In this document: one piece after another, positions 16,900 through 48,917 of the stretch
Position numbering within the stretch: position 1 is the stretch's first letter
How the letters are laid out: every line of letters begins with the position of its first letter
From: Paenibacillus tianjinensis
GTDB taxonomy: Bacteria > Bacillota > Bacilli > Paenibacillales > Paenibacillaceae
DNA length: 64,000 nt
Direction of reading: 5' to 3'
NCBI RefSeq assembly: GCF_017086365.1
Contig: NZ_CP070969.1
Coordinates: forward strand, 1,860,001-1,924,000
Notes under the pieces: generated by a model
Told to the model about the DNA's origin: nothing
The model's input: the letters and a program-made list of their open reading frames with translations, nothing else
Database searches by the model: none
Program-made: the position numbers and the translations under genes

Positions 16900-17486
16900 C
16901 TACAAAAACTTCCGCTGCACCTTTTTGCCGTCATAGGTAAAAAAGGCTTTTTTGTCTTCGACCACGGTTTGCAGGTGTACTGTACGGCCCCAGAGGTTGT
17001 AGATATGCGGGAGGGTACGCTCCAGATATTTCAGATCCAGCTCGATGCTCTCGTAGCGGTGGGCGATCATCAGCTCGCCATTACGCTCGTAGTCAGCATC
17101 CTGGACAACCAGGTAAGGTGAGCCACCGTTGACCCTGGCGAGCACGAGCTGGTCGCGCACATTCTCCCAGGCTTTGTCGGTGATTTTCCATTCCGGGCCT
17201 TTTTTCTCGAACACATAGAGGTCCAGGTCATTGACCAGCTCCTTGGACAGGTAGCTGCGGATGAATGAGATGTCAGAGTCGAGCTCGCGGACTTCGAAGA
17301 TTTTGTCGCGGTCCCAGCGGCGCTCGATGTCCTCGAAGATTTTGAGACCCAGGTAATACGGGTTCAGGCTCTGGCGCGAAGGCTGCACCACCGATGAATT
17401 CAGCTTCGAGTATTCAATCGTCTCCTCGGGCGTCAGGTCCAGCTCGCGCATGATGCGCTGATGCCAGTAGGAGGCCCAGCCTTCGT
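16900..17486 (-). CDS. spoVR: spoVR, 3' part (split by the inserted element)
   Basis: This is the C-terminal 40% of SpoVR, a cytoplasmic protein of sporulating cells linked to spore cortex formation. It reads [17 protein letters not shown] at the junction and runs to [14 protein letters not shown]. Upstream of the junction the frame meets a TAG within the element, so there is no start of its own; only internal ATG codons exist. Fusion to the other host part at the 13-bp core gives a continuous frame. Compared with the element's own copy, this part lacks 17 residues after RRWD, an in-frame gap in a stretch the other copy keeps. Confidence 0.93.
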
Positions 17487-17502
17487 ATTGCTAAGGTGCT
17501 TA
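17474..17502. other. Left attachment site (attL) of the spoVR element
   Basis: The shared core GCCCAGCCTTCGT is followed on the element side by ATTGCT and the arm AAGGTGCTTA. That arm is an exact inverted copy of one at the other end. The TTA of the arm is the stop codon of the leftmost element gene on the minus strand. Confidence 0.88.
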
Positions 17503-19893
17503 TCTCAATGACAAGCGTTTTTCAAATTTGAGTTCTGCCCTAAACAACCTGTGAATATCGAACTCATCTACTCTATCAGTATCAAAATCTGCCTCTATGG
17601 CACTTTCTTTATATGAAGCTTTTGGTTTTCCCCTGACTTCTTTTTTATCAATTGCTCGAAGTAGACCCACTTTGTAAAGAGCATTTATTGCATCACTCGA
17701 GCTCATTGTATTATTTTGATAATCAAGCATTGATATTTCATTAGTAAAAAGTTTATTGAGATTTTCTTTTGACCACAACCATCCCTTAGTAGTTATTGTA
17801 GAGTTATTTTTTCTAAATGCTTCAATGACATCTCTTAAATTAGGGTATAGTTTTTTATACTCAGCACACAGATCCTCAATAAAGTTTTTTACAAACTTTT
17901 CCTCTGAATCTAGAATATTCTTGTTGGTTAAAGGGTATTTGTAGTTATTTACTTCAATAATTTTTCTGCAGAAATGAATTAGTTCTCTTGGTCTTAATAA
18001 TGATCGTTCAATTAAATAATCTCCTATTGGTTTAGAGACCTTATTATCATTTTTCCCGATATAAGTGTATTCCTCAGGATAAATCTTACACAGGTAGTAT
18101 TTAGGATCGTGTAATAAGTGCTTCGGAGGATGCTTCTTTGTGAAAAAATGACAAATCCTAGTGTTTAGAACCTCTAATAATTTATGTTTATTCCATCTTA
18201 GCTCAACAACGTTTCCTCGCATCTGTGATATGAAGCTATTTTCTTTTTTTGCGATAATGCTAAGGATATCTTCCCGCAAAAAAATTATAGGTTTTACTAT
18301 TGTGCTTTCTCTAACAATGTGCATTGATGCTTTAATTAAACTATTTACAAGTAGTATCGTGAAATCTGGATCAAGGTCATAATCATCATCTAAGTTATCA
18401 AAAAGAATGAAAATATGGTTATCTTTTAATTCTGGAAATTGAGCGAGTTCTTTATCGATCTGATTAAAATGAACATTTTCGAATTTGGATTTACTTTGGT
18501 ATGACAAATTCTGTTCCGTTGTTAACAATTTGAGGAAAGATACAAAAGTACCAACAAAACTTTGATCCTGACTGTTTAAAGCTGTGAAATCATAAAATGA
18601 AGATAGGTTTTCTTTTGAGAATAATTCACTTTCTTGTGTTTGAGAAATTAAATTCTTGACCATAAGAGCATAGATCGTATTAAGCCATATTTTTGATAAT
18701 TTATTTCTGAATATTTCATTTGGAATAGTTTTTGCTTGCTCTCGGATATTATCAATTTGTAAGTAATCAGGTCTTATGATCATACAGGAATTTGGTTTAT
18801 CAGCTTTGAGCATTTTTGCGATGGAACTTTTACCTGTCCCTCTTTTTCCTGAAACCAAAAAGATATTTCCATTTTTTATTCGGTTATATTCTTCAGTGTT
18901 AATAAAGTAGCTATGTAGATTATGATCATTTTCCCCAGAGTCGTTACCAAATAATACATCTACATCGATAATATTTCTGTCTGGAATCGAGAGAGACTCA
19001 TCTTTCTCAGCTTCTAATTTACTAGGAGGAGCTAATTTTGAAGCATAATTATCAGATAACAATTTTTTATTTGATATCACCGACAAAATTTTTCTTATTT
19101 CATGAGCGTGTTGATTGGTTTTATCGACATAATACGGAATTACTTCTAATTCATAAGTGTCTTTAAAATGTTTTATTATTGAATCATCAGGATTGTTAAG
19201 AACTATGTAATGTTTATTTTTTGAGAAAGTTTGAATTTTTTCCAAAAAACCCGAGAAGTATTGATCAGTAAAGGAGAAGCCTATAAAAATAAATTGTTTG
19301 CTCGTAGCTAATGTTTTGAAAATCGCTTCGTACTTTTCATTGTTGTATAGATCATTGTATTGTTCTTTACTAATTACAATACTTCCTTGATTAGAGATAT
19401 TACCGTGTAAATGATAAATGCGTTTTCCTAAAGGATTCAAGAGTTGGCTGGAACGTAGGTCAACTTCATTTAGATTTTGAGGAATAAATCCGCTGATGTT
19501 CTTTATGTGCTCAAATAAAATATGATCATAATTCGTAGTTAGATAAATTTTAAAGTCTAGTTCGCCGAGTTCTTTATAATTATGTAAATTATCTGGGATA
19601 TCATCGAGTTTCTTTTCGTTGATAATGTTTACAATTGAGTCTTGGATATCTCGATCGTTCATGCCTGAAAAACGTTTAATATCGTTTATTGCTTCCCAGT
19701 AGTTGTTATTTTTAAGCGAAAAGAGAACCGTTTGTCTCATGAAATCCTGTTCGAGGTTCCTTGATGAAATTAGTTCTATTAATTTTGACCAATTAGGTAT
19801 GTCAAAGGGAGTCGATAAACCAGATCCTAAGAAAGGAACAAGGTTTCCTTCGTTGTAAAGTTTATTTAAGTCATTAACTAGCTGTGCTCTCAT
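17500..19893 (-). CDS. SIR2-like/P-loop ATPase fusion, likely anti-phage
   Basis: A 797-residue protein. Residues 1-260 match a SIR2-like NADase domain: LVPFLGSGLS (about 17-26), TTNYDHILFE (near 118), YHLHGNI (near 163) and FIFIGFSFTD (near 202). The rest is a P-loop ATPase with Walker A SGKRGTGKSS (near 350) and a candidate Walker B IFILFDNLDDD (near 495), resembling Sll1717-type ATPases. SIR2 domains in defence systems deplete NAD+ after phage sensing; here the ATPase part would be sensor or switch (inference). The start was chosen at ATG with GGAGG six bases upstream, not at a longer frame. The stop codon lies in the attachment arm. The gene is very AT-rich. Confidence 0.85.
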   Translation of the reverse strand: MRAQLVNDLNKLYNEGNLVPFLGSGLSTPFDIPNWSKLIELISSRNLEQDFMRQTVLFSLKNNNYWEAINDIKRFSGMNDRDIQDSIVNIINEKKLDDIPDNLHNYKELGELDFKIYLTTNYDHILFEHIKNISGFIPQNLNEVDLRSSQLLNPLGKRIYHLHGNISNQGSIVISKEQYNDLYNNEKYEAIFKTLATSKQFIFIGFSFTDQYFSGFLEKIQTFSKNKHYIVLNNPDDSIIKHFKDTYELEVIPYYVDKTNQHAHEIRKILSVISNKKLLSDNYASKLAPPSKLEAEKDESLSIPDRNIIDVDVLFGNDSGENDHNLHSYFINTEEYNRIKNGNIFLVSGKRGTGKSSIAKMLKADKPNSCMIIRPDYLQIDNIREQAKTIPNEIFRNKLSKIWLNTIYALMVKNLISQTQESELFSKENLSSFYDFTALNSQDQSFVGTFVSFLKLLTTEQNLSYQSKSKFENVHFNQIDKELAQFPELKDNHIFILFDNLDDDYDLDPDFTILLVNSLIKASMHIVRESTIVKPIIFLREDILSIIAKKENSFISQMRGNVVELRWNKHKLLEVLNTRICHFFTKKHPPKHLLHDPKYYLCKIYPEEYTYIGKNDNKVSKPIGDYLIERSLLRPRELIHFCRKIIEVNNYKYPLTNKNILDSEEKFVKNFIEDLCAEYKKLYPNLRDVIEAFRKNNSTITTKGWLWSKENLNKLFTNEISMLDYQNNTMSSSDAINALYKVGLLRAIDKKEVRGKPKASYKESAIEADFDTDRVDEFDIHRLFRAELKFEKRLSLR

Positions 19894-20253
19894 ATTTAGC
19901 CTCCAAAGTAGTATCTTACAGAGCATTATATTACCATTATCATACATCATATATTGATAACTTAACAATTAAGATATACTGGATTACACCCACTTGTACC
20001 TTGAAAAATGAATTTTATATAATATACCCAATCACCGAGAAACGTTTACCATCCTAAAATCCTGCCCATACTGATGAATGTAGAAAGTGGACAAACCCCA
20101 GTGTACAAGCACTTTCTCTGTGCTTTGTCTCGGTAGCCGGGTAGGCTACCGATCGGGTGCCTATCTCGTTACCGAGATTTTGGCACCCGTGAAGGACAAG
20201 CTGACCAAATAACCGAGAACTCGTCCACATTCAGGTGAGAAAACCTAGACAAC
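19894..20253. other. Palindrome-rich intergenic region with ACCGAGA motifs
   Basis: No gene is seen. Several hairpins lie in series: GAAAGTG/CACTTTC (20083-20116), CGGTAGCC/GGCTACCG (20131-20151) and CGGGTGCC/GGCACCCG (20154-20189) enclosing ATCTCG/CGAGAT. TCTCGGTA (20128-20135) can also pair with TACCGAGA (20170-20177), giving mutually exclusive folds. The heptamer ACCGAGA occurs directly at about 20034, 20171 and 20212 and inverted at 20128. It may be a structured leader, a cis-regulatory RNA or a recombinase-binding region. Confidence 0.55.
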
Positions 20254-20287
20254 TAAAAAACCGACCGTCTTAGTTAAGACAGTCGGT
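20254..20287 (-). terminator. Terminator of the recombinase operon
   Basis: Read on the minus strand, a long stem (ACCGAC...GTCTTA/TAAGAC...GTCGGT, one mismatch) is followed by TTTTTTAG. It overlaps the end of the coiled-coil reading frame. Confidence 0.9.
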
Positions 20288-20751
20288 TAACTAATGCTCG
20301 TTCTTACAAGGCTACTTCTTGTTTGGATAGCTATTTCGCCATGCGTAACTATTTTCTTGCTATCAATGGTTTTTGGAGTAAATGTAGCTTGCACAACCAG
20401 ATAGGTAATCATTTTTCGGATGTCATTATCATTGTCGTGATTAGTCATGATACTCATGGTTCTGATATTACGCGTGATTTCATCTTCATTTCCCTCAATA
20501 AGTTCGAGGTACTGAGCGCTCTTGTCTAACTGATTAATTTCTGTTTTAAGTTTTTTGATCCGACTGAACAGGTGTTCCTTCTGCAGAGTAAGGATTTGAA
20601 CCATTTTGGTGTTATCGTCGATGCTTTCAAGGTCTTTCACTAATGACGCAAGGCGTTTTGATTGATCTTCTGCCATTTGCAGTTGATGTTCTGCTCCATT
20701 TAACTCGACCATGGTCCTACTCAATCGATCAGTAACGAGCTGACGCTCTTT
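20287..20751 (-). pseudogene. C-terminal coiled coil of serine recombinase B, after an in-frame amber codon
   Basis: This open stretch is in the same frame as the upstream recombinase, separated from it by a single TAG. It encodes about 154 residues: a Leu/Glu/Lys-rich coiled coil (about 1-95, for example KEHLFSRIKKLKTEINQLD) and a tail IRKMITYLVVQATF then IVTHGEIAIQTRSS, the usual end of large serine recombinases. Restart codons exist (TTG at 20724, ATG at 20712), but the Shine-Dalgarno before the ATG is weak and too close. So it is either the lost tail of a nonsense-mutated recombinase or a separately made coiled-coil subunit. I favour the former. Confidence 0.7.
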
Positions 20752-21864
20752 CTATAACTCGTTATATACATACAAACTAACGGTTTCTAGATTTTGAGAC
20801 TTCAAATCCTTCAACACAACATCAATGACCGTATGAATCCGATCTAGCTCGATCTTATATTTGCATGTAGGGCAGAAATACCATTTTTTCCCGTAGAGTT
20901 TGTTTCGTTTCTTATCAAATGTAGTTTGGTCTTTACCAATCAAAATACTATTACAGACTGAACAATTCAGCAGATTGCTTAAAAAGAAGCTCGTTTTGTA
21001 CATTTTCGGGTTGAGATTTCCGGTCTTTCTCTGCTCGAAGATCGCCCAGGTTTCTTTCCATTCATCCAAGCTCATAATCGGCTCGATTAAGTCACTTTTT
21101 ATCATCAACCAGTTTTCGATTGGAGTAATTGAATTTCTTGAGTGTTCAGATTTGCGATGGTGAGACATGTAACCAGCGTAAAAAGGGTTCGTTATAATCC
21201 AGCGTACAGTTGCCTTATTAATGGTTTTACCGAATTCATGGCTGATCAAGCGGGAAATGGATTGGAAACCCTCTCGATTGCGGTACAACTCATACAGACG
21301 TCGTACAATTGTTAATTCTTCTCCACATTGAGAAAAGGATTTGTTTATTTTGTCATAGCGGTAACCAAAAGGGGCTTTACCGCCAGTCCATTTTCCTTTA
21401 ATTAAAATACTCTTAGCGGTATCTCGGGTACGAATTCGAGTATTATCGACTTCCATTTTGGAAGTCCCATCCTTGATCAGATCAACAATAAAATCCCCAG
21501 AGTCATACAAGCTCTCAGAACTGCTAATAACAACAGGAATATTGCAACCGGCTAATATCATTCGAATCTTCTGATGTTCCGTCGGATTTCTTGCAATACG
21601 GTCATGATGATTAATTAGGACGAAATCAAATTTGCCGTCGATCGCTTCTTTAAGAAGAAGGGAGATTCCATCACGGTCATCTAACTTCTTTTTTCTAGCG
21701 GACACGCCAGCATCTTCGTACTCACATGTAATCATGCATCCATATTTCTTGGCAAATTCATAAGCCATGGACCGCTGGGTTTCCATCGTTTGTTTATCCG
21801 TAGAATGACGCCCATAGAATGCGCCCCTCATTCCAGGCTTTATGAGATCAGCTAACGCCAACAT
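20752..21864 (-). CDS. Large serine recombinase B, truncated at an amber codon
   Basis: 370 residues: resolvase domain with the catalytic Ser in YGRHSTDKQ (Ser21), DRIARNPTEHQ further on, a recombinase domain (GKAPFGYRYDKINKSF, ATVRWIITNPFYAGY) and a zinc ribbon (CSVC and CPTC, about 305-345). The frame stops with TAG right after SLYVYNEL, where other family members enter the coiled coil, and the coiled coil follows in the same frame. The start overlaps the upstream recombinase gene by 17 bases. Without its tail it would probably bind and synapse att sites poorly, unless the tail is supplied in trans or by readthrough. Confidence 0.82.
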   Translation of the reverse strand: MLALADLIKPGMRGAFYGRHSTDKQTMETQRSMAYEFAKKYGCMITCEYEDAGVSARKKKLDDRDGISLLLKEAIDGKFDFVLINHHDRIARNPTEHQKIRMILAGCNIPVVISSSESLYDSGDFIVDLIKDGTSKMEVDNTRIRTRDTAKSILIKGKWTGGKAPFGYRYDKINKSFSQCGEELTIVRRLYELYRNREGFQSISRLISHEFGKTINKATVRWIITNPFYAGYMSHHRKSEHSRNSITPIENWLMIKSDLIEPIMSLDEWKETWAIFEQRKTGNLNPKMYKTSFFLSNLLNCSVCNSILIGKDQTTFDKKRNKLYGKKWYFCPTCKYKIELDRIHTVIDVVLKDLKSQNLETVSLYVYNEL

Positions 21865-23299
21865 GTACAATCACAGCCTTTCCTTTAAACGGGTCTCGAA
21901 ATTGGATATAAAGTGAGGGTGTGTCAATCTCGATTCGATAGACAATGTCCCGGATGAACTCTTCTCTTTCACTGTCTTTATAGGAGAGAACCTCGGTTAT
22001 TAAATCAACTGATTGTTGAAGTTCCTTTATTAGATGGAATTGTTTCTGCAGTTGATCAAGCTCAAGGGGATAATAATGTTGCATTTCCTCTTCCCGACGG
22101 ATGCAATTGTGCAGGTAGAATAGCTTATCCTGTAAATCGGGTGTTGGGGACTGCAGCCATAATGAGGTATCTTTATAGAGCTTCTGTTTGTATAATTGAA
22201 TCGCCTCTTGGCTCTCAGCGATGGAGTCTTTGTAAAACTGAATCATGTTCCCGTGTGTCAGCTGGTACAGTTCAGGAAAGTAGGTTTGAAACTGCCCTGT
22301 GATGAATTTTGCACATTCCTCTAGAATCATTTCTTCTAGCAGATCAGGAGAGAGACGGATGTAATTATGCTTCTTACAAGTGTAATATTTCCTTGTACTT
22401 ACATCCGTTTTTTCTTTGCCAAACATGGCTTTGTTGCACTTGCCGCAAAATAGCAGATCGTCGAGAGTCATAGGGATTCGACTAGTTTTTCGAGAGCGAG
22501 TTTGGATAAGATTATTCATCCGTTCCTGTGCCTTACTCCAAGTTAATTCGTCAACGATACGAAGCCTTTCATTCTCAATCTCAACATACTCACCAAATTC
22601 CTCGATTTTTCGAATGCCCTTATATATGGTGTTTCCAATCAAACTTTGGATTCGATTGTAATCCCATTTGGCAGGAAAACAATCATGTTGCTGTATATCT
22701 CGAACAAAGTCCGAGAATGTATTACATTTGGTCTCAATGATTGCATTATACAGTTTGTAGATCGTCTTAGCCTGATCCGGATGTTGATCATAGTTCTTGT
22801 CCTTATCAACTACATAACCATAAGCGACTCGACCTTGAGCATGTTTCCCTTGTTTTGTCATCGTATATTTTGTTTCTTTGATGCGTTGGACGATCTGATT
22901 GGCTTCACGCTGATTGAACCCGGCAATGATTAGCTCGAAGAATTCTCCGGCTGGCGAGTATTGGATCGGTATTTCATTATCGGCGGTGAATACAACCTTG
23001 ATTTGTTTGGAGCGAAGTAACTCAAATAACTCCATTGACTGCACCACATTTCTGGCTAAACGATCACGTTTATAAACATAAAGCATTGAAACCTGATCGT
23101 TTTCGATGTCATGAATTAAACGGCTTAACTCAGGACGTTCGTGAATTTCGGTTTTTCTTGCCGATACAGCTTCATCCAGATATAGATCATCGAATAATAA
23201 GCCCTTCGCTTTGACTTTCTCTAGCGCAAGAGCCTTTTGCATATCAATAGAATGCTCCTGCGTTTTAATGGAAGATCGAGCATACAATACCGTTTTCAT
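21848..23299 (-). CDS. Large serine recombinase A
   Basis: 483 residues, complete. The resolvase domain has LYARSSIKTQ (catalytic Ser10) and YKRDRLARNVVQS; then come a recombinase domain (RVAYGYVVDKDKNY, GNTIYKGIRKI), a zinc ribbon (FCGKCNKAMFG and TCKKH, about 285-325), a coiled coil (about 350-440) and a terminal beta segment. The ATG has AGGAG 10 bases upstream. The gene lies between a 52-residue gene seven bases upstream and recombinase B, which overlaps its end, so the three form one operon. It is a candidate integrase/excisionase for the spoVR site, alone or with B, reminiscent of paired Ccr recombinases. Confidence 0.9.
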   Translation of the reverse strand: MKTVLYARSSIKTQEHSIDMQKALALEKVKAKGLLFDDLYLDEAVSARKTEIHERPELSRLIHDIENDQVSMLYVYKRDRLARNVVQSMELFELLRSKQIKVVFTADNEIPIQYSPAGEFFELIIAGFNQREANQIVQRIKETKYTMTKQGKHAQGRVAYGYVVDKDKNYDQHPDQAKTIYKLYNAIIETKCNTFSDFVRDIQQHDCFPAKWDYNRIQSLIGNTIYKGIRKIEEFGEYVEIENERLRIVDELTWSKAQERMNNLIQTRSRKTSRIPMTLDDLLFCGKCNKAMFGKEKTDVSTRKYYTCKKHNYIRLSPDLLEEMILEECAKFITGQFQTYFPELYQLTHGNMIQFYKDSIAESQEAIQLYKQKLYKDTSLWLQSPTPDLQDKLFYLHNCIRREEEMQHYYPLELDQLQKQFHLIKELQQSVDLITEVLSYKDSEREEFIRDIVYRIEIDTPSLYIQFRDPFKGKAVIVHVGVS

Positions 23300-23306
23300 T
23301 GGCTAT

Positions 23307-23465
23307 TCACTCCTCTCCAGGGTTTTGGTCAACATGTTCGGCGATAAGCTGCTTCTTCAGCAGAGTGACGTATAGTTCCATCCATTTGCGAGCGGCAAGT
23401 GGGTCATGAATTTGACTAATGGACGAAATTTGAAGCTCTGTGGTACGAGTTTTTTTGCGGTTCAA
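23307..23465 (-). CDS. 52-residue accessory protein, candidate directionality factor
   Basis: The small frame starts at TTG with AGGAGG nine bases upstream and ends seven bases before recombinase A, so it is probably co-translated. The product is basic at the N-terminus (NRKKTRTTELQ) and has one amphipathic helix (KWMELYVTLLKKQLIAEHV). No family was recognised. Small proteins beside large serine recombinases can act as recombination directionality factors (SprB of SP-beta is of similar size); that is inference from size and position. A longer upstream frame exists, but the ribosome site favours the TTG. It diverges from the HTH gene only 33 bases away. Confidence 0.6.
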   Translation of the reverse strand: MNRKKTRTTELQISSISQIHDPLAARKWMELYVTLLKKQLIAEHVDQNPGEE

Positions 23466-23498
23466 GGTGTTATTCCTCCTAAGGTGGTGATAAAGAAG

Positions 23499-23843
23499 AT
23501 GAGCAATTTCGGACAACAATTAAGGCAGATTAGACAGCAGAAGGGGTTCGGTCTGAACGAGTTCGCCAAAGAGATAGGGGTTTCACCCGCGTACTTAAGC
23601 AATCTGGAAACGGGAAAAACACAGACCATCCAGCTAGAAATATTGAGTAAGCTGAAGCAAGAACTACATATGATCATTAACGAGGATGTTGCCCAGAACG
23701 ATCATACAGTGTGGCGTGCAGAGCGCATAGGTGAATTGCTGTTGGACTTGCACCGCACCAATCCGATAGCTACTGATTACTTGATGACGATGGTGGAACA
23801 AGGAGTGGAGCTATTCACAGCCGGATCATCCGACATCCATTAA
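23499..23843 (+). CDS. XRE-family helix-turn-helix regulator
   Basis: 114 residues. The N-terminal 65 residues are a Cro/CI-type HTH: FGQQLRQIRQQKGFGLNEFAKEIGVSPAYLSNLETGKT, followed by a short helical tail. The ATG has AAGGTGGTG upstream; the same frame stays open further up. Being divergent from the recombinase operon with starts 33 bp apart, each gene's promoter must lie inside the other's coding sequence, a layout suited to a repressor controlling recombinase expression. Likely role: lysogeny-type control of element excision (inference). Confidence 0.85.
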   Translation: MSNFGQQLRQIRQQKGFGLNEFAKEIGVSPAYLSNLETGKTQTIQLEILSKLKQELHMIINEDVAQNDHTVWRAERIGELLLDLHRTNPIATDYLMTMVEQGVELFTAGSSDIH

Positions 23844-23959: not shown

Positions 23960-24205
23960 TTAGTCGGTAATGTCTGAGGTTGGATTATTCTGCGCCATCG
24001 TTATTTGGTAGTTTGAAGGGTGATCTCTACCGAGCTTTTGCTGTAGCCAAATGTCTGCCGCTGCACGTTTTAGACGAATTTCAAAATCATTGAGGCGATT
24101 CAATAAAAGTTCTGAGAATGAGTGCTCTTGCAAGTCGGATAATAATGTGAAACTGTTCTGTTCATCATGATGTTCAATTGTAAAACGGACTTTGAGTTGT
24201 CCCAT
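23960..24205 (-). CDS. 81-residue protein of the recombinase module
   Basis: The ATG is preceded by GAGGTGAT at the right distance. The product MGQLKVRFTIEHHDEQ...RAAADIWLQQKLGRDHPSNYQ is acidic with a central amphipathic helix and no known motif. It is divergent from recombinase C with about 100 bp between the starts. Its place among three recombinases suggests an accessory or directionality role, but there is no direct evidence. The region beyond its stop holds a GCTTAAC/GTTAGGC hairpin. Confidence 0.6.
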   Translation of the reverse strand: MGQLKVRFTIEHHDEQNSFTLLSDLQEHSFSELLLNRLNDFEIRLKRAAADIWLQQKLGRDHPSNYQITMAQNNPTSDITD

Positions 24206-24308
24206 AATATCACCTCGATCTAATCTATGCATCAAGGTCGCAGGGACAACCCTATGAAATAGCATATATAGAAGAGGACAGGCATAGGTATGGACAAGGG
24301 GGGAAGTC

Positions 24309-29009: not shown

Positions 29010-29106
29010 GGTATTTTAAAACTAAAGCAAGAGGATTAATTGGGTCTAATGTCGAATAGACAGTCATTATAATCGGGAATATGTGACTAAAAAGGAGTTT
29101 TTAGGA

Positions 29107-31644: not shown

Positions 31645-31652
31645 TCGGGACA

Positions 31653-37588: not shown

Positions 37589-37591
37589 ACG

Positions 37592-38779: not shown

Positions 38780-41700
38780 TTATATTCAAAAAAGAAACTA
38801 ACCGATGGAAACCTCATAGGCTTATACTGTGCAACTACTGGTACTATACGTACAAAGTATATCAATTTAAAAATGGTCGCATCCTTTTTCGGGGACACAA
38901 TGCTTCCGGAAAATCTATTACAATGCAATCACTCTTCACATTTTTGCTCGACGGGAATAAATCCCCATCAAGACTTGACCCTTTTGGTTCCTCAGCGAGG
39001 AAACTCTATGAAATCCTGCTGGGCGAAGAATCGGTGAATCGCGATATTCAAGAGCGGATTGGTTATATTGCCATTGAGTACAAAAGAGAGAAGACCGAGG
39101 AATATATGACGACTGGCTTTGGTCTTCATTCAAAACGCAAAGACAACCGCCTAAAAAATGCGTGGGGATTCGTGATTCACGACCCTTTTCGTAGAATTAA
39201 CGAAGGAGAAAATCCGCTTCCCGTCTACAAGCGCGAAAAGTTGGACGGAAAATGGGAACGGCTGCCTCTGACCCGCGAGGAATTTGTTAAAGCCGTAGGA
39301 AACAGCGGCACAGTGGTTGATGAATCGCATTACGCCGCGCTCGTTAACAGTCATTTGTTTAAATTCCCTGATGCTTCGAATCTAGAGATGTTCACGGAGG
39401 TTTTGACGCAGCTAAAAAGCCCGAAGTTGTCGCGTGAAGCTGGTCCAAACAAACTCAAAGAAGTTCTGCACAACTCGCTTATGCCCATTTCGGACAAGGA
39501 AATATCTCCGCTTACCGTTACCGTAGAATCCATGGACAAAACTCAAGCAACCATCGAAAAACATGAGCAGGACTTGGCAGCGGTTAGAAGTATGGCAACT
39601 GAATATGCCAGATATAAGCGATACGTATTTGCCGAGAAAGCGAAGTATTATCTCGACAATAAACGCATCCTAGATAGCCACGCCAAGAAATTCAAGGAAA
39701 CAGAATATACGATTCGCCTTAAATCGGCTGAGAAAGAAACGAAGGAAGCCGAAAAGGAAAGTAAAAGCAATGAACTCGAAGTTTTAAACCGAGAGTATGA
39801 TGAATATCGGGGCGGTGAAGTGGCTCAACTGCAAGGCAATCTAGATAAAGCCGAACGGGAACTGACGCAGTTCTCAAAAGACGCTCTTGCAAAAGAAGAG
39901 CGCTTTAACACAAAAAACGACCTGGTTACGAAATCCATTGAAAAAATACGGAAACTCGAAGATGCAATTTACACCGCAAAAAAAGAAATGGGTGCTCATT
40001 TAGCGGAACTTGAGGATATGTCCGTAGACACCGGCTTTGATGACGTTCTGTACCTCCCTCATTTTAAAAAATGTGCGGATGATGCCGCTTATGACTTCTC
40101 CATGTGGGAGCGGGATTCAAAAAAATATCTGTCTCTACTACAGACGACACGTTCAAAGATTAAAGAATATGAGTCTCTTAAAGATAAAACGAATGCGCTG
40201 AAAACTGAAATCGAGCGTCTACAAATCCGTTACAACGAACAACGCGAACTTCTCAAGGAACTTGCTAACTCCTATGATTGGGAGAGAGAAGAGGGCGCGA
40301 AAGAGTTGTCGGTTTGGTTTGAGTCGCTTTGCACATTGACTGCAAGCAATGGGGCGATACAAGAAACGCTCGATTTGTTTCCGGAGTACCTAATTTCTGT
40401 TTCGGACGAGCAATTGAAAAGTCCGCTTTCGATTGAGAAAGATGCTCAGATTGAACATGCACAGGTGGAGTCGATTAAACTTCAAAACCTGATAGATTCC
40501 TTAAAGTTGAGAAAAGGGGAGCTCGAAGCTACCCTTAGTGACCTTGAAAATAACAAAGAAATTGAGCCATACAAATCCTACGCTAAGGCTGAGCAATTCA
40601 AAGGGCTAACTGAAATGGGTGTTCCCTTTATCCCATTTTGGGCGGCTGTCGAGTTTAAAGAAGGTTTGAGTGGGGAAGCGAAAGCAAATATTGAGTCGGT
40701 TGCTATCGAGCTTGATTTGCTTAACGCAGCTATTGTTCCTGTTCATGCTTACGATGAAGCCAAAAAAAATAGTGTCGTACTGTCCCGCAACAACAAATGT
40801 GACCGCAATTTGACCGAATATTTGACCCCAGTTTCAAGTGACAACGTTTCTGATACCGATATACTTGCTGTCTTAATGGGCATTTCGATTGACCACACAA
40901 GTCAAACTTTCGTCGCAGCTTCCGGCGAATTTAAAACCGGTATCGTCGAAGGAACCTCTCCTTCTTTTGGCGACGCAAAGTTTATTGGTAAAACGGCTCG
41001 TGATTTGCTTCGTAAAAAAGAGATTGTCCGCATTCAAGGCGAAATTGTAACTATTGAGGACGAACTCGAACAGCTTCATTCGCAAAAAAAGGCATGGCTT
41101 GAAACGAAGCAACAGATTGCAAATGAGTTTTCTTCTTTCCCGTTCTTTAATACGTTAAAAACAGCAAAGAGTCAGTACGAAGAGAAAATAAATTTTATTA
41201 CGCATATCGTCAAATCCGAATTGGATAACAAGTCGGAGCTTTATAAGAGACTAGCCGCTGAACTAGAGGGACTGCTATTGTCTGTTAAAGCAACGGCTGC
41301 TTTCACAAGCCTACCACTTACGGAGAAGGCGTTCGCGGAAGCCATTGATGCCACCAACCATTATTTACTTCTTCTGACGAACATCAAAAGCGATTTCCGA
41401 GCTCTTGCTGATAAACGGAATTCCCTGCGCACCGAGCAAGATAATAAAGAAGAGCATGAAAATGACCTGGAGGATTTAAGGGGAGAATTGTTTACCATCC
41501 GTAACAAGATAGACCGCACATCGAAATATATTCAGTCCCTTGAAGACCAATTGAAACTAAGCGGTGCCGAAGAAGTACGTAAACGCATCGCGGAAGTCAT
41601 CGCGAAACTTCAATCTTTGCCGGGTGAAATAAGTCAGCTTGCGACGGATGTGGGCGTTATTCAAAACAAAATTGCAACCATGGTTGAATCCCTGCCTTCA

Positions 41701-42981
41701 CTTAAATCTACGATTCATTTTTACAACGAGCTTTGCTCGGCATGGGAAGTAATTTTTGTCCAAGATGTACGAGAAAATGCTTCGGAATATGAGCTTGATG
41801 AAACGTTGGACACCAAGATGATGGCGAAGCAAATTTACGACAAGTTTGGCGTTCTGCTCGACAAAAAGGAAAAGTCTCAAGTAAATACCGAATTATCGAA
41901 ACATTTTACAGCAAGCAGCATGAGCTTAATCGAATACGATGCAGAATTAAAAGCTGTTCCTTACATGGTTAACTTCACGAACATTCCAGAAGAGGAACAA
42001 GCAAACGTAGAACTGCTCAAATCGGTAGCGCAGTTCTCGAAAATTACGCTTCAACTTCAAATTGATGGTGAACTTCGTACGCTTTCACCTTCTGAATTAC
42101 GCACGAAACTCGAAGGCTACGTTAATATGCAAAAGAAAACACTCACAGATAAGGACCGCGAGCTATTCGAAGATATTATGATTAATTCCATTGGCGAAAC
42201 GATTCGCAACAAGATTCGCAGTGCTAATGATTGGGTTAACCGCATCAATGCTTTTATGGAACTTGCGAAAAATTCAAGCGGTTTGAGGTTCCAAGTCCAG
42301 TGGAAACCGATTACTAAGCAAGATGAAGGCGAACTAAAAACCGAAGATTTGGTCAAATTGCTCGAACGCGACCCCAAACTACTAGCAGATCATGACCGAC
42401 TCAGTATCTCTCAGCATTTCCGTTCGAAGGTAAATGCGGCGAAGCAAATCATGGAGACTGACGGTAAAGTACAGTTCTTGGAGGTGATTAAATCTGTTTT
42501 GGACTATCGCAAATGGTATGAAATAATCATCAAGTACGAAAAACCAGGCGAATCCATGAAAGAAATGCAGACGAAGCATTTCAACTCGTTCAGTGGTGGC
42601 GAAAAGGCGCTCGCGATGTATACGCCGTTACTTGCAGCTGTTGACGCTAGACTTCAAAGCGCCAGCGAAGATGCCCCCCGTATTTTTGCACTCGACGAAG
42701 CATTCGCAGGCGTTGATGATAACAACATCGAAGAAACCTTCAAGATTATCGAAATGTTCGATTTTGACTACACCTTGAATTCGCAAGCGTTGTGGGGATG
42801 TTTTTCTGAAGTGAAGCATCTTTCTATTTACGACTTGTCCCGTCCGCAAAACGCAAACTACGTCATCACCACTCAATACGAGTGGGATGGCATCCGGAAA
42901 ATCTCTATTGCGGAAAGTCTCGATGACATTATGCCGGAAGAGACGTTTGAATTAGTGGACGAACAAGCTGTTCTTTTCTAA
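38776..42981 (+). CDS. jetC: Wadjet protein JetC (SMC/MukB-like ATPase)
   Basis: 1401 residues. The ATPase head is split at the two ends: Walker A in RGHNASGKSITMQ (about 38-50), ABC signature in FNSFSGGEKALAM (near 1270) and Walker B in RIFALDEAFAGVDD (near 1302). Between them are long coiled-coil arms (about 270-580 and 750-1050, broken by a hinge-like region near 600-760). This is the motor that extrudes DNA loops on plasmid-sized circles. The frame is intact, unlike the helicase next door. Confidence 0.95.
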   Translation: MIIFKKETNRWKPHRLILCNYWYYTYKVYQFKNGRILFRGHNASGKSITMQSLFTFLLDGNKSPSRLDPFGSSARKLYEILLGEESVNRDIQERIGYIAIEYKREKTEEYMTTGFGLHSKRKDNRLKNAWGFVIHDPFRRINEGENPLPVYKREKLDGKWERLPLTREEFVKAVGNSGTVVDESHYAALVNSHLFKFPDASNLEMFTEVLTQLKSPKLSREAGPNKLKEVLHNSLMPISDKEISPLTVTVESMDKTQATIEKHEQDLAAVRSMATEYARYKRYVFAEKAKYYLDNKRILDSHAKKFKETEYTIRLKSAEKETKEAEKESKSNELEVLNREYDEYRGGEVAQLQGNLDKAERELTQFSKDALAKEERFNTKNDLVTKSIEKIRKLEDAIYTAKKEMGAHLAELEDMSVDTGFDDVLYLPHFKKCADDAAYDFSMWERDSKKYLSLLQTTRSKIKEYESLKDKTNALKTEIERLQIRYNEQRELLKELANSYDWEREEGAKELSVWFESLCTLTASNGAIQETLDLFPEYLISVSDEQLKSPLSIEKDAQIEHAQVESIKLQNLIDSLKLRKGELEATLSDLENNKEIEPYKSYAKAEQFKGLTEMGVPFIPFWAAVEFKEGLSGEAKANIESVAIELDLLNAAIVPVHAYDEAKKNSVVLSRNNKCDRNLTEYLTPVSSDNVSDTDILAVLMGISIDHTSQTFVAASGEFKTGIVEGTSPSFGDAKFIGKTARDLLRKKEIVRIQGEIVTIEDELEQLHSQKKAWLETKQQIANEFSSFPFFNTLKTAKSQYEEKINFITHIVKSELDNKSELYKRLAAELEGLLLSVKATAAFTSLPLTEKAFAEAIDATNHYLLLLTNIKSDFRALADKRNSLRTEQDNKEEHENDLEDLRGELFTIRNKIDRTSKYIQSLEDQLKLSGAEEVRKRIAEVIAKLQSLPGEISQLATDVGVIQNKIATMVESLPSLKSTIHFYNELCSAWEVIFVQDVRENASEYELDETLDTKMMAKQIYDKFGVLLDKKEKSQVNTELSKHFTASSMSLIEYDAELKAVPYMVNFTNIPEEEQANVELLKSVAQFSKITLQLQIDGELRTLSPSELRTKLEGYVNMQKKTLTDKDRELFEDIMINSIGETIRNKIRSANDWVNRINAFMELAKNSSGLRFQVQWKPITKQDEGELKTEDLVKLLERDPKLLADHDRLSISQHFRSKVNAAKQIMETDGKVQFLEVIKSVLDYRKWYEIIIKYEKPGESMKEMQTKHFNSFSGGEKALAMYTPLLAAVDARLQSASEDAPRIFALDEAFAGVDDNNIEETFKIIEMFDFDYTLNSQALWGCFSEVKHLSIYDLSRPQNANYVITTQYEWDGIRKISIAESLDDIMPEETFELVDEQAVLF

Positions 42982-43004
42982 ATCATGTAAACGAGGAAGT
43001 AACC

Positions 43005-44315
43005 ATGCCAACTATTGCAGAAGCCACACAATATTTCAAGGAGGAAAGAGGCTTTGACCGCCTCTTTCCCCTTATATTAAAGCGATACAAAGGTCTTCAA
43101 GCGTTAAGCGGAACCGTGAAATTGAAAGATATAGAGCCAAATGAAGTTAACGCCATTGAACGCTTTTTAGCCAAACAGCTTAAAATCGTTAATGGCGTAG
43201 CTACTATTTCTGTTGAAAACATTGTTGAGGAATACAGCAAAACGCTGTACGGTCACATCCCTTTCCTTGACCTATTAGAATCTTATTTTGACAAACCGAT
43301 TTTAACTAACAAAAAGGAAAGAGAAATACTTAGCTCCGTTAAGTTTTCTTTTTTTGAAAACAGCTACCTGCTTTACAAGAGTGCTTTGGGCGATATTATT
43401 TACGACCGAATTCAATCGAGGTCCCGCGGTAGCGCGCAGGTGCATTTGTTATATGAGCGAGACAAATCGTTATTAAGTTCCATTTTGCCTGCTGTGTTTT
43501 TTGCTATTTCCAAACTTCCTTTGGATGAACCGGTCAGACTTCCGCTGTTCGCGTCTGGAATCAATGGAAATCCTCACTTTCTAGATTTCGATACAGAAGC
43601 GGGACGTATTTTTATTTCTTTTCTTCAAATATTATTGGAAAATGATGATGTTAAAAGTTACGAATCGCAACCTAGCGCCGAAGAAATGACTGAGATTTTA
43701 AATTTTTTTGGCATTTGGAGAGACGATGTTCTTAACCAAGTGTCGTGTTTCGGAATCCGTGGATATAAGAGTGATGACTCTTCATTTCTTGTGCTGGATG
43801 CCGCGACTGAGGAAAAAACATTTATCAACTTACCCCTTCGCGATGTGCTTCGATTAAAGCGAGTTGAAACTTATCGAAATACCGTTTTTATTGTTGAAAA
43901 TTCCTCTTTGTTTTCTAGTCTTGTTGATTGTTTTATTCAAGAAGATAACTTTCCAAGTATCTTATGCACGCATGGTCAATTGAATCTAGCTTCGCTTAAG
44001 TTGCTCGATAAATTGTCTCAAACCGCTGATGTAATTTATTATTCCGGAGACCACGATGTGGACGGTCTTATTATTGCCGAGAACGTCAGTCGCAGGCTTG
44101 GACATAAATTAGAATTGTGGCGTTTTGATGCTGAGAGTTATACGAGTAGCCTTTCGGATGTGCCGCTAAGAAACGAATCTCGGTTGCAATTTGTGACCAA
44201 TGAACATTTACTGCCCTTAAAGCAGCTTTTGCAAGAACTAAACTGCGCAGCGTATCAAGAGCGTTTGTTCCCTGAATACATTAAAGACATTAAAAACGTA
44301 TTGAGAGTTTATTAA
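43005..44315 (+). CDS. jetD: Wadjet nuclease JetD (Toprim)
   Basis: 436 residues with GAGGAAGT five bases before the ATG. The C-terminal 150 residues form a topoisomerase VI/Toprim-like fold: VFIVENSSLFSSLV gives the conserved Glu (near 305) and YYSGDHDVDGLIIAENV the DxD (near 350). JetD cleaves the DNA once the JetABC motor has stalled. The N-terminal part (FDRLFPLILKRYKGL, KDIEPNEVNAIERFLA) is the arm domain. A DUF2399-like tail would fit a type II system. A terminator follows. Confidence 0.87.
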   Translation: MPTIAEATQYFKEERGFDRLFPLILKRYKGLQALSGTVKLKDIEPNEVNAIERFLAKQLKIVNGVATISVENIVEEYSKTLYGHIPFLDLLESYFDKPILTNKKEREILSSVKFSFFENSYLLYKSALGDIIYDRIQSRSRGSAQVHLLYERDKSLLSSILPAVFFAISKLPLDEPVRLPLFASGINGNPHFLDFDTEAGRIFISFLQILLENDDVKSYESQPSAEEMTEILNFFGIWRDDVLNQVSCFGIRGYKSDDSSFLVLDAATEEKTFINLPLRDVLRLKRVETYRNTVFIVENSSLFSSLVDCFIQEDNFPSILCTHGQLNLASLKLLDKLSQTADVIYYSGDHDVDGLIIAENVSRRLGHKLELWRFDAESYTSSLSDVPLRNESRLQFVTNEHLLPLKQLLQELNCAAYQERLFPEYIKDIKNVLRVY

Positions 44316-44463: not shown

Positions 44464-44470
44464 AGCTGTA

Positions 44471-45273: not shown

Positions 45274-46704
45274 TTACAAAAACTTTCGACTAACCTTCTT
45301 CCCCTCATACATAAACAAAAGCGGTTTATCATCCACAATCGTCTCGAGGTAAATGGTCTTCCCCCACAACTGATAAACATAAGGCAGAGTCCGCTCAACA
45401 TATTTCAAATCCAGTTCAACCCCTTCAAACTGATGCAGTAAATAAAGCTCGCCGTTCTGTGAATAATCCCCATCCTTCACAACTAGGCAAGGAAAACCGC
45501 CGTTAACGCGAGAGTATACAAGCTGATCACGGATATTCTCCCATGATTTGTCGGTAATTTTCCATTCGGGACCCTTCTTCTCGAAAACATATAAGTCCAG
45601 GTCATTCACCAAATCTTTGGTCAAGTAATTTCGGATAAAAGATATGTCAGCATCGTTTTCGCGGACTTCAAACATTTTTTCTCTACCGCGTACTGGCACT
45701 CTTCCGTACCGTTCTCTTTCTTTCTGAGTGGGGTTATCCCAGCGCTTCTCGATATCCTCAAATATTTTAAGCCCCAGGTAATAGGGGTTCAATGAATGCC
45801 GGGAAGGTTGCACGACGGATGAGTTAAGCGCAGCATATTCGACGGTCTCGTCAGAGGTTAAATCAAGTTCACGCATGATCCGTTGGTGGAAGAAGCTTGC
45901 CCAGCCCTCATTCATAATCTTGGTCTCGATCTGCGCCCAGAAGTACAGCATTTCATCACGAAGCATGGTTAAGATATCTCGCTGCCAAGGCTCCAATATG
46001 GCTGAATACTCCTCAATGAACCACAGAATATCCTTCTCAGGTTGAGGAGGGAAGGATACAGGTGGCTCTTTGACCTCCTTTGAATCTACTTTCTCTAGTG
46101 ACCACAAATCATCATAAGGCGATGAGGGTGGAATGAGTTTCGCTACCGGGGAACGTTTCTGCATGGAATAGATGTAAGCATTCTTTTCCATCCGATAAGG
46201 CTTAACGATCGAAGGATCGACATGCTCCTGAATGGCAAGCACGGCATCGATAAATTGTTCAACGGCTAACGTTCCATGGATCATTTCGTATTCACGGATT
46301 CGTTCTGCCGTTGTAGTCATGCTCTCAACCATATTCCGGTTTGTCTTTGAGAAGTGAGCATTGTTCTTGAAGAAGTCGCAATGGGCGAGGACATGAGCGA
46401 CGATCAGTTTGTTCTGGACGAGAGAGTTGCTGTCGAGCAGGAAGGCATAGCAAGGATCAGAGTTGATGACGAGCTCGTATATTTTACTCAGACCGAAGTC
46501 GTATTGCATCTTCATCTTGTTGAACGTCTTGCCGAAGCTCCAGTGACTGTATCGGGTGGGCATGCCGTACGCACCGAAGGTGTAGATGATATCGGACGGG
46601 CAGATTTCGTATCTCATGGGGTAGAAATCAAGTCCGAGTCCAGTTGCGATCTCCGTAATTTCGGCAATGGCATATTCCAGTGCTTTTAGGTCTGTGGCGG
46701 GCAT
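45274..46704 (-). CDS. spoVR: SpoVR, complete copy carried by the element
   Basis: 476 residues, complete from [22 protein letters not shown] to [12 protein letters not shown], with GGAGG eight bases before the ATG. It aligns along its length with the split host copy. It retains a 17-residue segment after EKRWD ([17 protein letters not shown]) that the host 3' part lacks. At the position of the attachment core it encodes the same residues (MNEGWAS), but two synonymous changes (AAC to AAT, GAA to GAG) break the 13-bp core. No clear sigma-E promoter was seen upstream. It may supply SpoVR while the host gene is disrupted. Confidence 0.95.
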
Positions 46705-46810: not shown

Positions 46811-47398
46811 ATGACTGTGTTGTTCAGTTTATCGATTGTTGCAATTTGCTATTTACTGAATCTGTATTCCAACCAGAAACGTGTGTTAGAGAGCTATCGC
46901 GAGAATGCGCTGTATGCGTTCTCTTCACATGAAGATATGAAAGAGACCCTTCGCATTGGCTTGTATAACCGTTTTAAACGGGATTTTGATCAAGAGAAAG
47001 ATGAAGATCCGCTGCTGTTCGAACATTTTGTTGCAGATATAATTAAAACTGTTCGAAGTGGCAGTACCTACGTTACAAGAGGTTCGGGCGATTTCGGCGT
47101 CGATATTGAAGAAAGAACAGATAATAGTCTGTTTTTGGGTCAAGTGAAGTGTTACAACGATCAGAATCTGGTTGGCTTCAGTCCGATTGCTATTATTCAC
47201 TCCCAGATGGTTAAACAAGACGCTGTAGGTGGTTATGTGGTCACGACGAGTGATTTTACTCCTAATGCTCGTGCCTACGCACAGGGATTGAATATTGATT
47301 TGATTAATGGCAGACAGTTGGTGGAGCTGTGGTTAGACCATCTGAATGCAAAAAGTGAAAGGATCGAAGTAGTAAAGGCAGAGCCACAATTAAATTAG
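46811..47398 (+). CDS. Membrane-anchored Mrr-like restriction endonuclease
   Basis: 195 residues. A single N-terminal membrane span (LFSLSIVAICYLLNLYS, about 4-20) is followed by a charged linker and an Mrr-type PD-(D/E)XK domain (about 70-180): FEHFVADIIKT, then the active-site pattern GDFGVDIEER and LGQVKCY (Asp...QxK), and a C-terminal GGYVVTTSDFTPNARAYA block typical of the fold. AAAGGAG is nine bases before the ATG. Mrr-family enzymes restrict modified or foreign DNA; membrane attachment suggests action on entering DNA (inference). Confidence 0.85.
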   Translation: MTVLFSLSIVAICYLLNLYSNQKRVLESYRENALYAFSSHEDMKETLRIGLYNRFKRDFDQEKDEDPLLFEHFVADIIKTVRSGSTYVTRGSGDFGVDIEERTDNSLFLGQVKCYNDQNLVGFSPIAIIHSQMVKQDAVGGYVVTTSDFTPNARAYAQGLNIDLINGRQLVELWLDHLNAKSERIEVVKAEPQLN

Positions 47399-47443
47399 CG
47401 CTTCAAACGACAGGCATTTACTAATGAGCTTCAGAGGAATATA

Positions 47444-47452
47444 TGCTATAAT
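47444..47452 (+). promoter_or_regulatory. Extended -10 promoter of the toxin-antitoxin pair
   Basis: TGCTATAAT, a perfect extended -10 element, lies 60 bp before the antitoxin start; no good -35 hexamer is needed with the TGn motif. Confidence 0.5.
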
Positions 47453-47511
47453 GCAGCTATGGGTGTGATGTTCAGAAGACTTAACGATTTCTTCAAAGGG
47501 AGGTTGTAAGG

Positions 47512-47745
47512 ATGAATTTTAATCTCAAAGCTCCTGATGGCACTGTCATTGCATCGTATGAGAAGAACCATAAGGAATTTATTCGTATTGCCGGTTTGGA
47601 ATATGAAATCTATAACCCAGTAGACGAACTGGATTCCGATCCGGAAATTCGCCAGATGATCGAAGCATCCGAGAAGGATATTATGCAAGGCAAGCTATAC
47701 TCTACGGATGATTTGATCGAATTGGTGAAGCGTGGTGGACTGTAA
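47512..47745 (+). CDS. Antitoxin of a type II pair (putative)
   Basis: 77 residues with GGGAGG nine bases before the ATG. The product is acidic (FNLKAPDGTVIASYEK, NPVDELDSDPEIRQMIEASEKDI) and ends in a short helix DDLIELVKRGGL that could wrap the toxin. It lacks an obvious classical HTH. It is directly followed by the toxin gene, which begins at the base after its stop codon. Identification rests mainly on the toxin neighbour. Confidence 0.7.
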   Translation: MNFNLKAPDGTVIASYEKNHKEFIRIAGLEYEIYNPVDELDSDPEIRQMIEASEKDIMQGKLYSTDDLIELVKRGGL

Positions 47746-48027
47746 TTGATAGTCCAATGGACCGAAACGGCGCTAAACCGGCTCAGGCAGATTAAGAGCG
47801 ATCACTTCACTGAACAGGAAACAATGGAGTACATGATCAACCTCATTCGGCGTACGGAAGTGAAAGTTGTCAGCATGGGAACAATTATGCCGTCACGCGA
47901 ATATCATAACACTTATTATTGCTTCGTGGACCGATATGTTGTCTCTTATAAAGTGTTGGATAACGGAGAACGCTTTGTGATCACCTCATTCAAGTACGGT
48001 GCTATGAAGCGAAATCTTAAATACTAA
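47746..48027 (+). CDS. ParE/RelE-superfamily toxin (putative)
   Basis: 93 residues from a TTG that abuts the antitoxin stop, with GGTGGA inside the end of the antitoxin gene as ribosome site. The pattern VQWTETALNRLRQIK, VVSMGTIMPSREY, YCFVDRYVVSYKVLDNGERFVITSFKYGAMKR fits the RelE/ParE fold. The pair is the last unit before the right attachment site and ends in a strong terminator, a position suited to stabilising the element against loss. Whether it cuts mRNA or poisons gyrase cannot be read from the sequence. Confidence 0.78.
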   Translation: MIVQWTETALNRLRQIKSDHFTEQETMEYMINLIRRTEVKVVSMGTIMPSREYHNTYYCFVDRYVVSYKVLDNGERFVITSFKYGAMKRNLKY

Positions 48028-48033
48028 TGTTAG

Positions 48034-48061
48034 CCGATTCCCATGGGAGTCGGTTTTTTTC
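48034..48061 (+). terminator. Terminator of the toxin-antitoxin pair
   Basis: Stem CCGATTCCC/GGGAGTCGG followed by a run of seven T, ending about 12 bases before the right attachment arm. Confidence 0.92.
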
Positions 48062-48071
48062 TGCCCAAAAC

Positions 48072-48917
48072 TTAAGCACCTTGGCGAACCGAAGCCCAGC
48101 CTTCGTTCATGATCTTCGTCTCCATCTGCGGCCAGAAATAGAGCATTTCGTCACGCAGCATGGTCATAATGTCGCGCTGCCAGTCCTCCAGTGTCGTCGA
48201 ATACTGCTGGATGAACCAGACAATATCCTTCTCCGGCTCCGGCGGGAAGGTGCGTTTTGCGGCTGCATCGGGCGCTGCAGGTCCGGCGTTGGCCTGATCC
48301 AGCTTCCAGAGCTCGCTGTAGGCATTCTCCTCAGCGGCTCCGCTTGCCGGGGTATCCTTGCGCTCCCTCATTTTGGCTTCCAGCAGATGGGCTTTTCCCA
48401 GCTTGTGCGGCTGAATCAGGCTGGGATCGATATGCTCCTGGATCGCCAGCACCGAGTCGATGAAGCTCTCCACGGTATCAATCCCGTAGGTCACCGAATA
48501 TTGGGCTATCCGGTCGGCTGTGGCAGACATGCTCTCAACCATATCACGGTTGGACATGGAGAAGCGCATATTGTTTTTGAAGAAATCGCAGTGCGCCAGG
48601 ACGTGGGCGACGATCAGCTTATTCTGGATCAGCGAGTTGCCGTCCAGCAGGAAGGCATAGCAGGGATTGGAGTTAATGACGAGCTCGTAGATTTTGCTGA
48701 GCCCGAAATCATATTGCGACTTCATCTTATGAAAGGTTTTACCAAAGCTCCAGTGTCCGAATCGGGTCGGCATCCCGTAGGCACCGAAGGTATAGATAAT
48801 ATCGGCGGGGCATATTTCATAACGCATCGGGTAGAAATCCAGCCCAAACCCGGTAGCGATCTCCGTGATCTCGGCAATCGCCCGCTCCAGCGCTTTTATC
48901 TCATCTTCTTGAGGCAT
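48072..48917 (-). CDS. spoVR: spoVR, 5' part (split by the inserted element)
   Basis: The first 276 residues of host SpoVR, from [23 protein letters not shown] to KIMNEGWAS, followed by five element-encoded residues (VRQGA) and a TAA inside the attachment arm. The ATG follows AAGGA; a longer upstream frame lacks a ribosome site. Until excision, the cell can only make a truncated protein from this part. Joining to the 3' part gives [16 protein letters not shown] and a protein of about 465 residues, close to the usual length. A sigma-E-like promoter lies about 100 bp upstream. Confidence 0.94.
48073..48106. other. Right attachment site (attR) of the spoVR element
   Basis: Arm TAAGCACCTT, spacer GGCGAACCGAA, then core GCCCAGCCTTCGT. 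With the left-end sequence this builds a 50-bp attP whose halves match at 19 of 25 mirrored positions around a central CA. Confidence 0.88.

Follow-up and report, generated by a model that had tools for sequence, protein, structure and literature searches.

Host spoVR of Paenibacillus tianjinensis is split by a 30.6-kb element that carries a complete second spoVR in which the recombinase attachment (att) site is altered. The element lies in a stretch of 64,000 nucleotides (NCBI RefSeq assembly GCF_017086365.1, contig NZ_CP070969.1, positions 1,860,001 to 1,924,000 of the forward strand), which we refer to as the window and number from its first letter. Based on sequence comparisons we propose that it is probably a non-prophage defence island with three large serine recombinases (LSRs), integrated by one of them, LSR-A, at a single spoVR codon, and that it represents a self-complementing variant bringing a site-altered spare of the gene it interrupts.

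The element (17474..48106) cuts host spoVR at about codon 274. The same 13-bp core, GCCCAGCCTTCGT, lies at both ends (Table 1) and nowhere else in the window, it occurs in none of 100 shuffled sequences, and the direct repeat shared by the element ends is exactly these 13 bp. Fusing the host sides gives a single open frame with neither shift nor stop, 465 aa from the likely start. A first-pass annotation of this DNA had described the 30.6-kb interruption, the core at both ends and an open fusion of about 465 residues, and all three hold. It also took the view that its reading would fall if the spoVR of relatives lacked the core and aligned differently at this point; that objection does not hold, as uninterrupted spoVR genes with the same 13-bp core are found in relatives, for example G082, G332 and G333 (G-labels denote family genomes, L-labels loci of a wider genome collection, and G000 the P. 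tianjinensis genome studied). The element has a G+C content of 39.6%, compared with 51.2% in the window flanks. Joining its ends gives an attP with a 50-bp imperfect palindrome (19 of 25 inverted matches, central TG) whose score none of 2000 shuffles matched, the largest shuffle value being 16; such symmetry is as would be expected for the attP of a serine integrase. With sporulation gene-intervening elements it shares that it is site-specific, located in a mother-cell gene, bounded by a short direct core and of a kind whose excision would restore the frame; the mother-cell role of spoVR is taken from the papers cited below, and a sigma-E-like promoter of host spoVR is seen here (Table 1).

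The complete second SpoVR inside the element had been overlooked by the earlier annotation. It matches PF04293 at E 3.8e-150, and in this genome, a single contig that is 100% complete, SpoVR matches number three: the two halves and this copy. As the only intact spoVR lies inside the element, SpoVR function in this strain need not depend on excision. The residues at the att site read NEGWASFF in the internal copy and NEGWASYW in host SpoVR; among the best 120 database relatives listed, 19 have FF, 100 YW and one FW. In the DNA of the internal copy an AGY codon for serine takes the place of TCN, and Phe-Phe that of Tyr-Trp, so that the right att arm is altered and the left hardly, and by its excess divergence the right arm falls within the lowest 1% of windows. 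The spare stands in the same cassette (small open reading frames (ORFs), Mrr, SpoVR), at the attL end and in host orientation, in four genera (G000, G255, G351, G189). It is intact in three of the four; the G189 copy is broken, and one of the small ORFs was not found on that contig. The ratio of nonsynonymous to synonymous substitution rates (dN/dS) is 0.029-0.044 for the spare versus 0.07-0.14 for its cassette neighbours, and judged by these ratios the spare is under strong purifying selection.

How the spare might be transcribed is suggested by its surroundings. A sigma-E-like score of 11-13 of 15 (calculated without a shuffle control) is found upstream of 11 of 12 native spoVR genes, YW and FF alike, whereas each of the four island copies either lacks a box or scores no higher than 10, two of them falling only a little short of the native genes. 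From attL to the spare the reading strand has no terminator-like site in any of three elements, the G255 scan being about 130 nt short. As there is neither a clear sigma-E promoter nor a terminator between attL and the spare, we propose that transcription reads through from the interrupted gene's own promoter. A sigma-A promoter for the spare was considered and rejected: in G000 the interval separating Mrr from the spare contains none, and weak sites further upstream are no more numerous than in shuffles.

Elements at the same spoVR codon are found in other genomes. The attR pattern occurs in 19 of 394 family genomes, representing 6 of 19 genera, and a reversed control pattern in none. At least 10 of 100 genus genomes have spoVR split at the same point, nine with both halves on one contig and G090 on two. 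The core and junction arms are alike in the relatives with small changes, the core of G372 having one altered base. Eleven of the 19 are split only (G036, G058, G059, G077, G078, G088, G090, G092, G097, G129, G286), three are split and have an intact internal SpoVR (G000, G255, G351), and four, which we call restored, have an intact spoVR followed by a displaced C-half (G046, G067, G100, G372). In the remaining genome, G189, the internal SpoVR copy is broken and the contig start hides the other junction; the best SpoVR match of this genome has E 2.5e-207, its place not being listed. LSR-A is open at all 11 split-only loci and at all three with an intact spare, and at none of the four restored loci; for split-only versus restored loci Fisher's p is ~0.0007, an overstated value because the genomes are related. 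In the 15 kb read in G189 there was no LSR-A. Searches with tblastn in the four restored genomes and in G189 found LSR-A fragments or nothing, in agreement with the zeros of the open-frame pattern; the same pattern gave zero for L097, L116, L125 and L128-L130 despite tblastn matches, and zeros there do not mean breakage. By these sequence comparisons the family is a group of elements defined by LSR-A and by its site at one spoVR codon.

In the restored genomes the second C-half, with its attR arm, lies 4.6-7.4 kb downstream of the intact spoVR, and the recombinases are decayed. The C-half pairs of G046 and G067 are 82-100% identical per 50 nt, the likeness ending about 600 nt on; the G100 pair is 92-100% identical to the end of the stretch, and the G372 pair is out of register after 100 nt. 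A second, divergent SpoVR-family gene with a mid-domain gap and a frame of 419-477 aa is present in at least 15 of 100 genus genomes, including G008, G018 and G019.

Three large serine recombinases are encoded in the element, LSR-A alone and LSR-B and LSR-C in one operon. LSR-A is conserved between elements (~63-64%), whereas LSR-B and LSR-C are divergent (~29-45% between two subfamilies). LSR-C was considered as the excisionase, in which case its stop in G000 would mean that excision is lost; this was rejected, as LSR-B and LSR-C form the divergent pair and LSR-A is conserved, like GirAB versus GirC of the gin element (PMC5595907; here and below, published work is cited for the accessible portions of the papers). 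By sequence LSR-A is related to the SP-beta integrase YokA, and every match to it in phages and plasmids is below 60% identity. The element thus has a recombinase and att sites of its own, the two being linked through co-occurrence.

The regions upstream of LSR-A hint at sporulation control. We scored 39 of them, five collection loci that duplicate family genomes being excluded, with KMATATT as the -35 and CATA as the -10 element of what we take to be the sigma-E consensus. The best CATA box has a -35 of at least 6/7 in 12 of the 39 loci (shuffle mean 1.87, maximum 7 in 1000), the summed score is 187 versus a shuffle maximum of 173, and the spacer is 14 in 33 of the 39 rows. This spacing fits the 12±1 published for sigma-E promoters (PMC517825), if the 10-nt -10 element begins 2 bases before CATA. 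In B. subtilis spoIVCA of skin is controlled by sigma-E and SpoIIID (PMC517825, PMC5025042). Genes for sigma-E and sigma-K in the genome score above the family cut-offs. Boxes of the form RRACARNY, presumably the SpoIIID consensus, number 55 versus a shuffle mean of 11.4 and a maximum of 25, which is only a lead as the loci are related.

A small gene, cl2, lies next to LSR-A and divergent from it in all 13 family elements for which this region was available, and also at 31 of the 36 collection loci, in six of these 31 only at E 0.004-0.02. Its position beside LSR-A and its size make cl2 a candidate recombination directionality factor; the directionality factor of C. difficile has 72 aa (PMC5025042). 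A sigma-E promoter for cl2 itself was rejected: a CATA box is present at cl2 in 38 of 39 loci (24.4 expected, largest 33), and among the 33 loci whose box falls within the range scored, none has a -35 of at least 6/7. Sporulation control of recombinase or directionality factor is a possibility suggested by promoter-like sequences.

Beyond the family, a scan of the genome collection with 13 LSR-A sequences gave 236 relatives, of which the best 80 were taken and the first 36 examined, six of these being family genomes already counted. The relatives occur in Geobacillus, Bacillus, Schinkia, Peribacillus, Lysinibacillus, Brevibacillus, Alicyclobacillus, Anaerobacillus, Heliorestis and others. At 28 of the 36 loci the flanking sequence retrieved around LSR-A (up to 10 kb) contains half of a SpoVR or a fragment of one; of the remainder, one (L097) has an uninterrupted SpoVR stretch and seven have nothing. 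A whole-genome search in 13 genomes with LSR-A relatives found no full-length SpoVR in ten and a full-length one in three. LSR-A thus appears to be associated with spoVR by co-occurrence, with exceptions, and its presence beside split spoVR in many Bacillota genera suggests that spoVR is a broad hotspot for such islands. The SpoVR of L097 (Paenibacillus sp. J45TS6, 20706-21479) reads NEGWATFF, is truncated by the locus end and is about 10 kb away from an LSR-A that shares 91% identity with the query.

In the mechanism that we propose, sigma-E would switch on LSR-A in the mother cell, where cl2 would turn the recombinase to excision and spoVR would be rejoined, the spore retaining the island. 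The altered right att arm of the spare should prevent LSR-A from using the spare's site, and the spare, host-oriented and lacking a clear sigma-E promoter, would be transcribed by read-through from the host spoVR promoter. The island would in this way supply a spare of the gene that it breaks and could be tolerated with or without excision. A further-reaching idea, which we put forward tentatively, is that of a 'home-and-rescue' element, which breaks a gene that one cell type needs and brings a promoterless spare, recoded at att so as to escape the element's integrase and driven by the promoter of the broken gene, a spare that in some lineages would have replaced the native gene. All FF copies, island-borne and native, form one group in the SpoVR tree (100/99), from which nat_G129, nat_G286, nat_L082 and sixteen further native loci were left out. 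A tree of the neighbouring PrkA (nine rows, G003 left out) places G004 with G000 and G085, and G343 and G373 with G351 and its kin (81/94, moderate), unlike the SpoVR tree in which G004 groups with G373 (99/96). This conflict for G004 suggests transfer, that is, that an FF spoVR moved into the native locus.

Several observations weigh against our proposal. As to the spare, its right arm is no more diverged than windows at the start of the gene and another ~97 codons upstream; FF spoVR is the only copy, at the native locus, in G004, G343 and G373 (among the matches listed), and as the FF form also occurs outside islands, lineage drift may account for the arm change. Some of the selection seen on the spare may date from before its capture, and an intact spare is found in only three of 14 split family loci. 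The native FF spoVR of G004 has a sigma-E-like score of 9, no good match, and weak sigma-A-like sites (2, 3 and 2 in three elements, no more than in shuffles) lie before the spare on the reading strand, so that read-through is not the sole possible source of its transcript. As to excision, at eight family loci, which are related, the LSR-A -35 matches only 4/7, and the predicted structure of cl2 (mean predicted local distance difference test score 77.9) matches no PDB entry at E ≤ 0.001. The excised junction is present in none of 100 genus assemblies and the attP circle was not seen, an absence that is expected for vegetative DNA and yet lends no support. No relaxation is seen in the host spoVR halves of G000 (dN/dS 0.022-0.056), as would be the case if the native gene remained in use or the element had inserted recently. 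Finally, LSR-A relatives at 53-56% identity (L116, L122 and L125, the genomes G401, G403 and G404) sit in genomes with an intact spoVR, so that the association of LSR-A relatives with split spoVR is not universal, and in these three the integration target may lie elsewhere.

Some of these data would also fit a plain element of the skin or gin kind, in which spoVR is rejoined by mother-cell excision and the internal SpoVR is a passenger of no importance. Eleven of the 14 split family loci are split only and keep LSR-A, the G000 host halves are still intact, and the spare is broken in G189 and reduced to mere remnants in G129 and G036. A passenger should decay, however, whereas the spare is found at the same place in four genera with the lowest dN/dS of the cassette, and we consider this explanation unlikely. 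That the island is static, excision having been lost in this strain and the spare doing all SpoVR work, would agree with the stop in LSR-C and the intact spare. In gin, however, excision is carried out by the separately encoded GirC and does not need the operon recombinases (PMC5595907); LSR-A, the analogue of GirC, has an open frame here, accompanied by a promoter-like site and by cl2, and the host halves are undecayed, which makes a static island quite improbable. We give equally little credence to the internal SpoVR serving another function together with its cassette neighbours, Mrr and the two small ORFs, rather than SpoVR supply: the spare adjoins Mrr in all four carriers, with one or both small ORFs, and lacks a clear sigma-E promoter, but in G004, G343 and G373 (among the matches listed) the only spoVR, at the native locus, is a close relative of the spare. 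An ordinary integrative island for which spoVR is a tolerated landing site, with no developmental control, is hard to reconcile with the sigma-E-like promoter at many LSR-A genes, with an LSR-A that within the family is open only where spoVR is split, and with the low dN/dS of split spoVR genes, and is very doubtful.

Our preferred reading, a self-complementing defence island, draws together features of known elements. As a target gene spoVR, in the first-pass annotation a sporulation gene different from those of skin and SP-beta, is not new: vrin of Geobacillus thermoglucosidasius C56-YS93, attributed to Abe et al. 2013, is already in spoVR (as cited in PMC4191935); another paper places the spoVR case in B. 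weihenstephanensis instead (PMC6957869). The interrupted gene is the same, and at L100 and L127, two Geobacillus loci, LSR-A lies next to half of spoVR. In contrast to our element, vrin, known here by description, is said to carry phage-related genes, and an internal spoVR is not mentioned for it in the accessible portions of PMC4191935 and PMC6957869. The closest design is that of gin in gerE of Bacillus cereus ATCC 10987, a non-prophage element with three recombinases (Abe et al. 2017, PMC5595907). Both are non-phage islands with restriction cargo in a mother-cell gene, and both have three serine recombinases, two operonic and diverging between elements and one separate and conserved, together with a small partner protein. 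In its recombinases and its lack of phage genes our element is of the gin type, but its target is spoVR rather than gerE; cl2 has ~80 aa and GirX 42 aa, a comparison by size only; excision has been demonstrated for gin, the spoVR element being known here from sequence; and no intact gerE inside gin is mentioned in the accessible text of PMC5595907. With skin in sigK and SP-beta in spsM our element shares a serine-recombinase design in a mother-cell gene whose frame excision restores (PMC4191935, PMC5025042, PMC517825). Those elements differ in being prophages or prophage remnants, with a single recombinase according to PMC5595907, and the accessible portions of PMC4191935, PMC5025042 and PMC517825 mention no spare of the interrupted gene. 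The earlier suggestion of a skin-like excisable element is favoured by the family comparison, with LSR-A open where spoVR is only split and sigma-E-like promoters present; what weakens it is that, with an intact SpoVR of its own, excision need not be required here. Its view that the cargo is defence genes, not a prophage, is borne out: the element is an integrase element with defence cargo, and no phage structural family, as would mark a prophage, appears among the Pfam matches of the 20 element ORFs (≥100 aa) scanned. The defence-type cargo comprises the SIR2/LmuA-like, GmrSD, helicase-nuclease, Wadjet and Mrr genes. The spoVR target and the three-recombinase non-phage design are already known; an intervening element that carries an intact copy of the gene it interrupts, altered at the site, was not found among the open-licence papers searched.

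Gene-intervening elements are thought to persist because sporulation requires the host to excise them (PMC6957869, discussion). If our proposal is true, a self-supplied, site-proof spare would be a second answer, freeing the island from dependence on host excision. The family would then form a natural series (excision alone, a spare in addition to excision, and a repaired gene whose recombinase has decayed), which allows the selective forces maintaining the recombinase to be tested.

Table 1. Features of the spoVR element and its host gene in the window (positions in the window; basis of assignment or remark where given).
Feature	Position	Strand	Basis or remark
3' (C-terminal) part of host spoVR	16900..17486	-	begins at core; PF04293 positions 265-403
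13-bp core, C-half end	17474..17486	.	repeat search
SIR2-domain/ATPase protein, N-terminal part LmuA-like, defence cargo	17500..19968	-	domain and defence-model search
LSR-C, one in-frame stop after codon 372	20287..21870	-	sequence comparison
LSR-B	21848..23299	-	domain search and comparison
Xre-type helix-turn-helix regulator (cl3)	23406..23843	+	domain search
cl2, 81 aa, divergent from LSR-A, candidate recombination directionality factor	23960..24205	-	
LSR-A sigma-E-like promoter, GCATATA-N14-CATAGGTAT	24262..24291	+	-35 = 6/7
LSR-A, large serine recombinase, proposed spoVR integrase/excisionase	24309..25787	+	
Coiled-coil-like protein	25850..26749	-	adjoins LSR-A in several elements
GmrSD-type type IV restriction protein, defence cargo	26955..28613	+	
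DUF4011/MTES_1575 helicase-nuclease gene	29083..35418	+	split by Mutator-family transposase (30358-31578)
Wadjet-type JetABCD operon	36074..44315	+	best PADLOC models JetA2-D2
Complete element-borne SpoVR, 476 aa, NEGWASFF, proposed spare	45274..46704	-	host spoVR orientation
Mrr-type nuclease	46811..47398	+	member of conserved left-end cassette
Cassette small ORF 1	47512..47745	+	toxin-antitoxin-like label a guess, no NCBIfam match
Cassette small ORF 2	47746..48027	+	toxin-antitoxin-like label a guess, no NCBIfam match
13-bp core, N-half end	48094..48106	.	repeat search
5' (N-terminal) part of host spoVR	48094..48917	-	stops at core; PF04293 positions 3-270
Host spoVR sigma-E-like promoter, TCATACT-N14-CATATACT	49008..49041, approximate	-	motif score

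Outside the window, at G000:C1:1385522-1442600 (L176-L178), an intact sigK (233 aa) has four sigK 3'-end fragments spread over the 57 kb that follow it. These begin at sigK nt 186, 200, 314 and 314 and are 87-94% identical over 389-517 nt, with several shorter pieces besides, as if sigK of this genome had been invaded and restored repeatedly.

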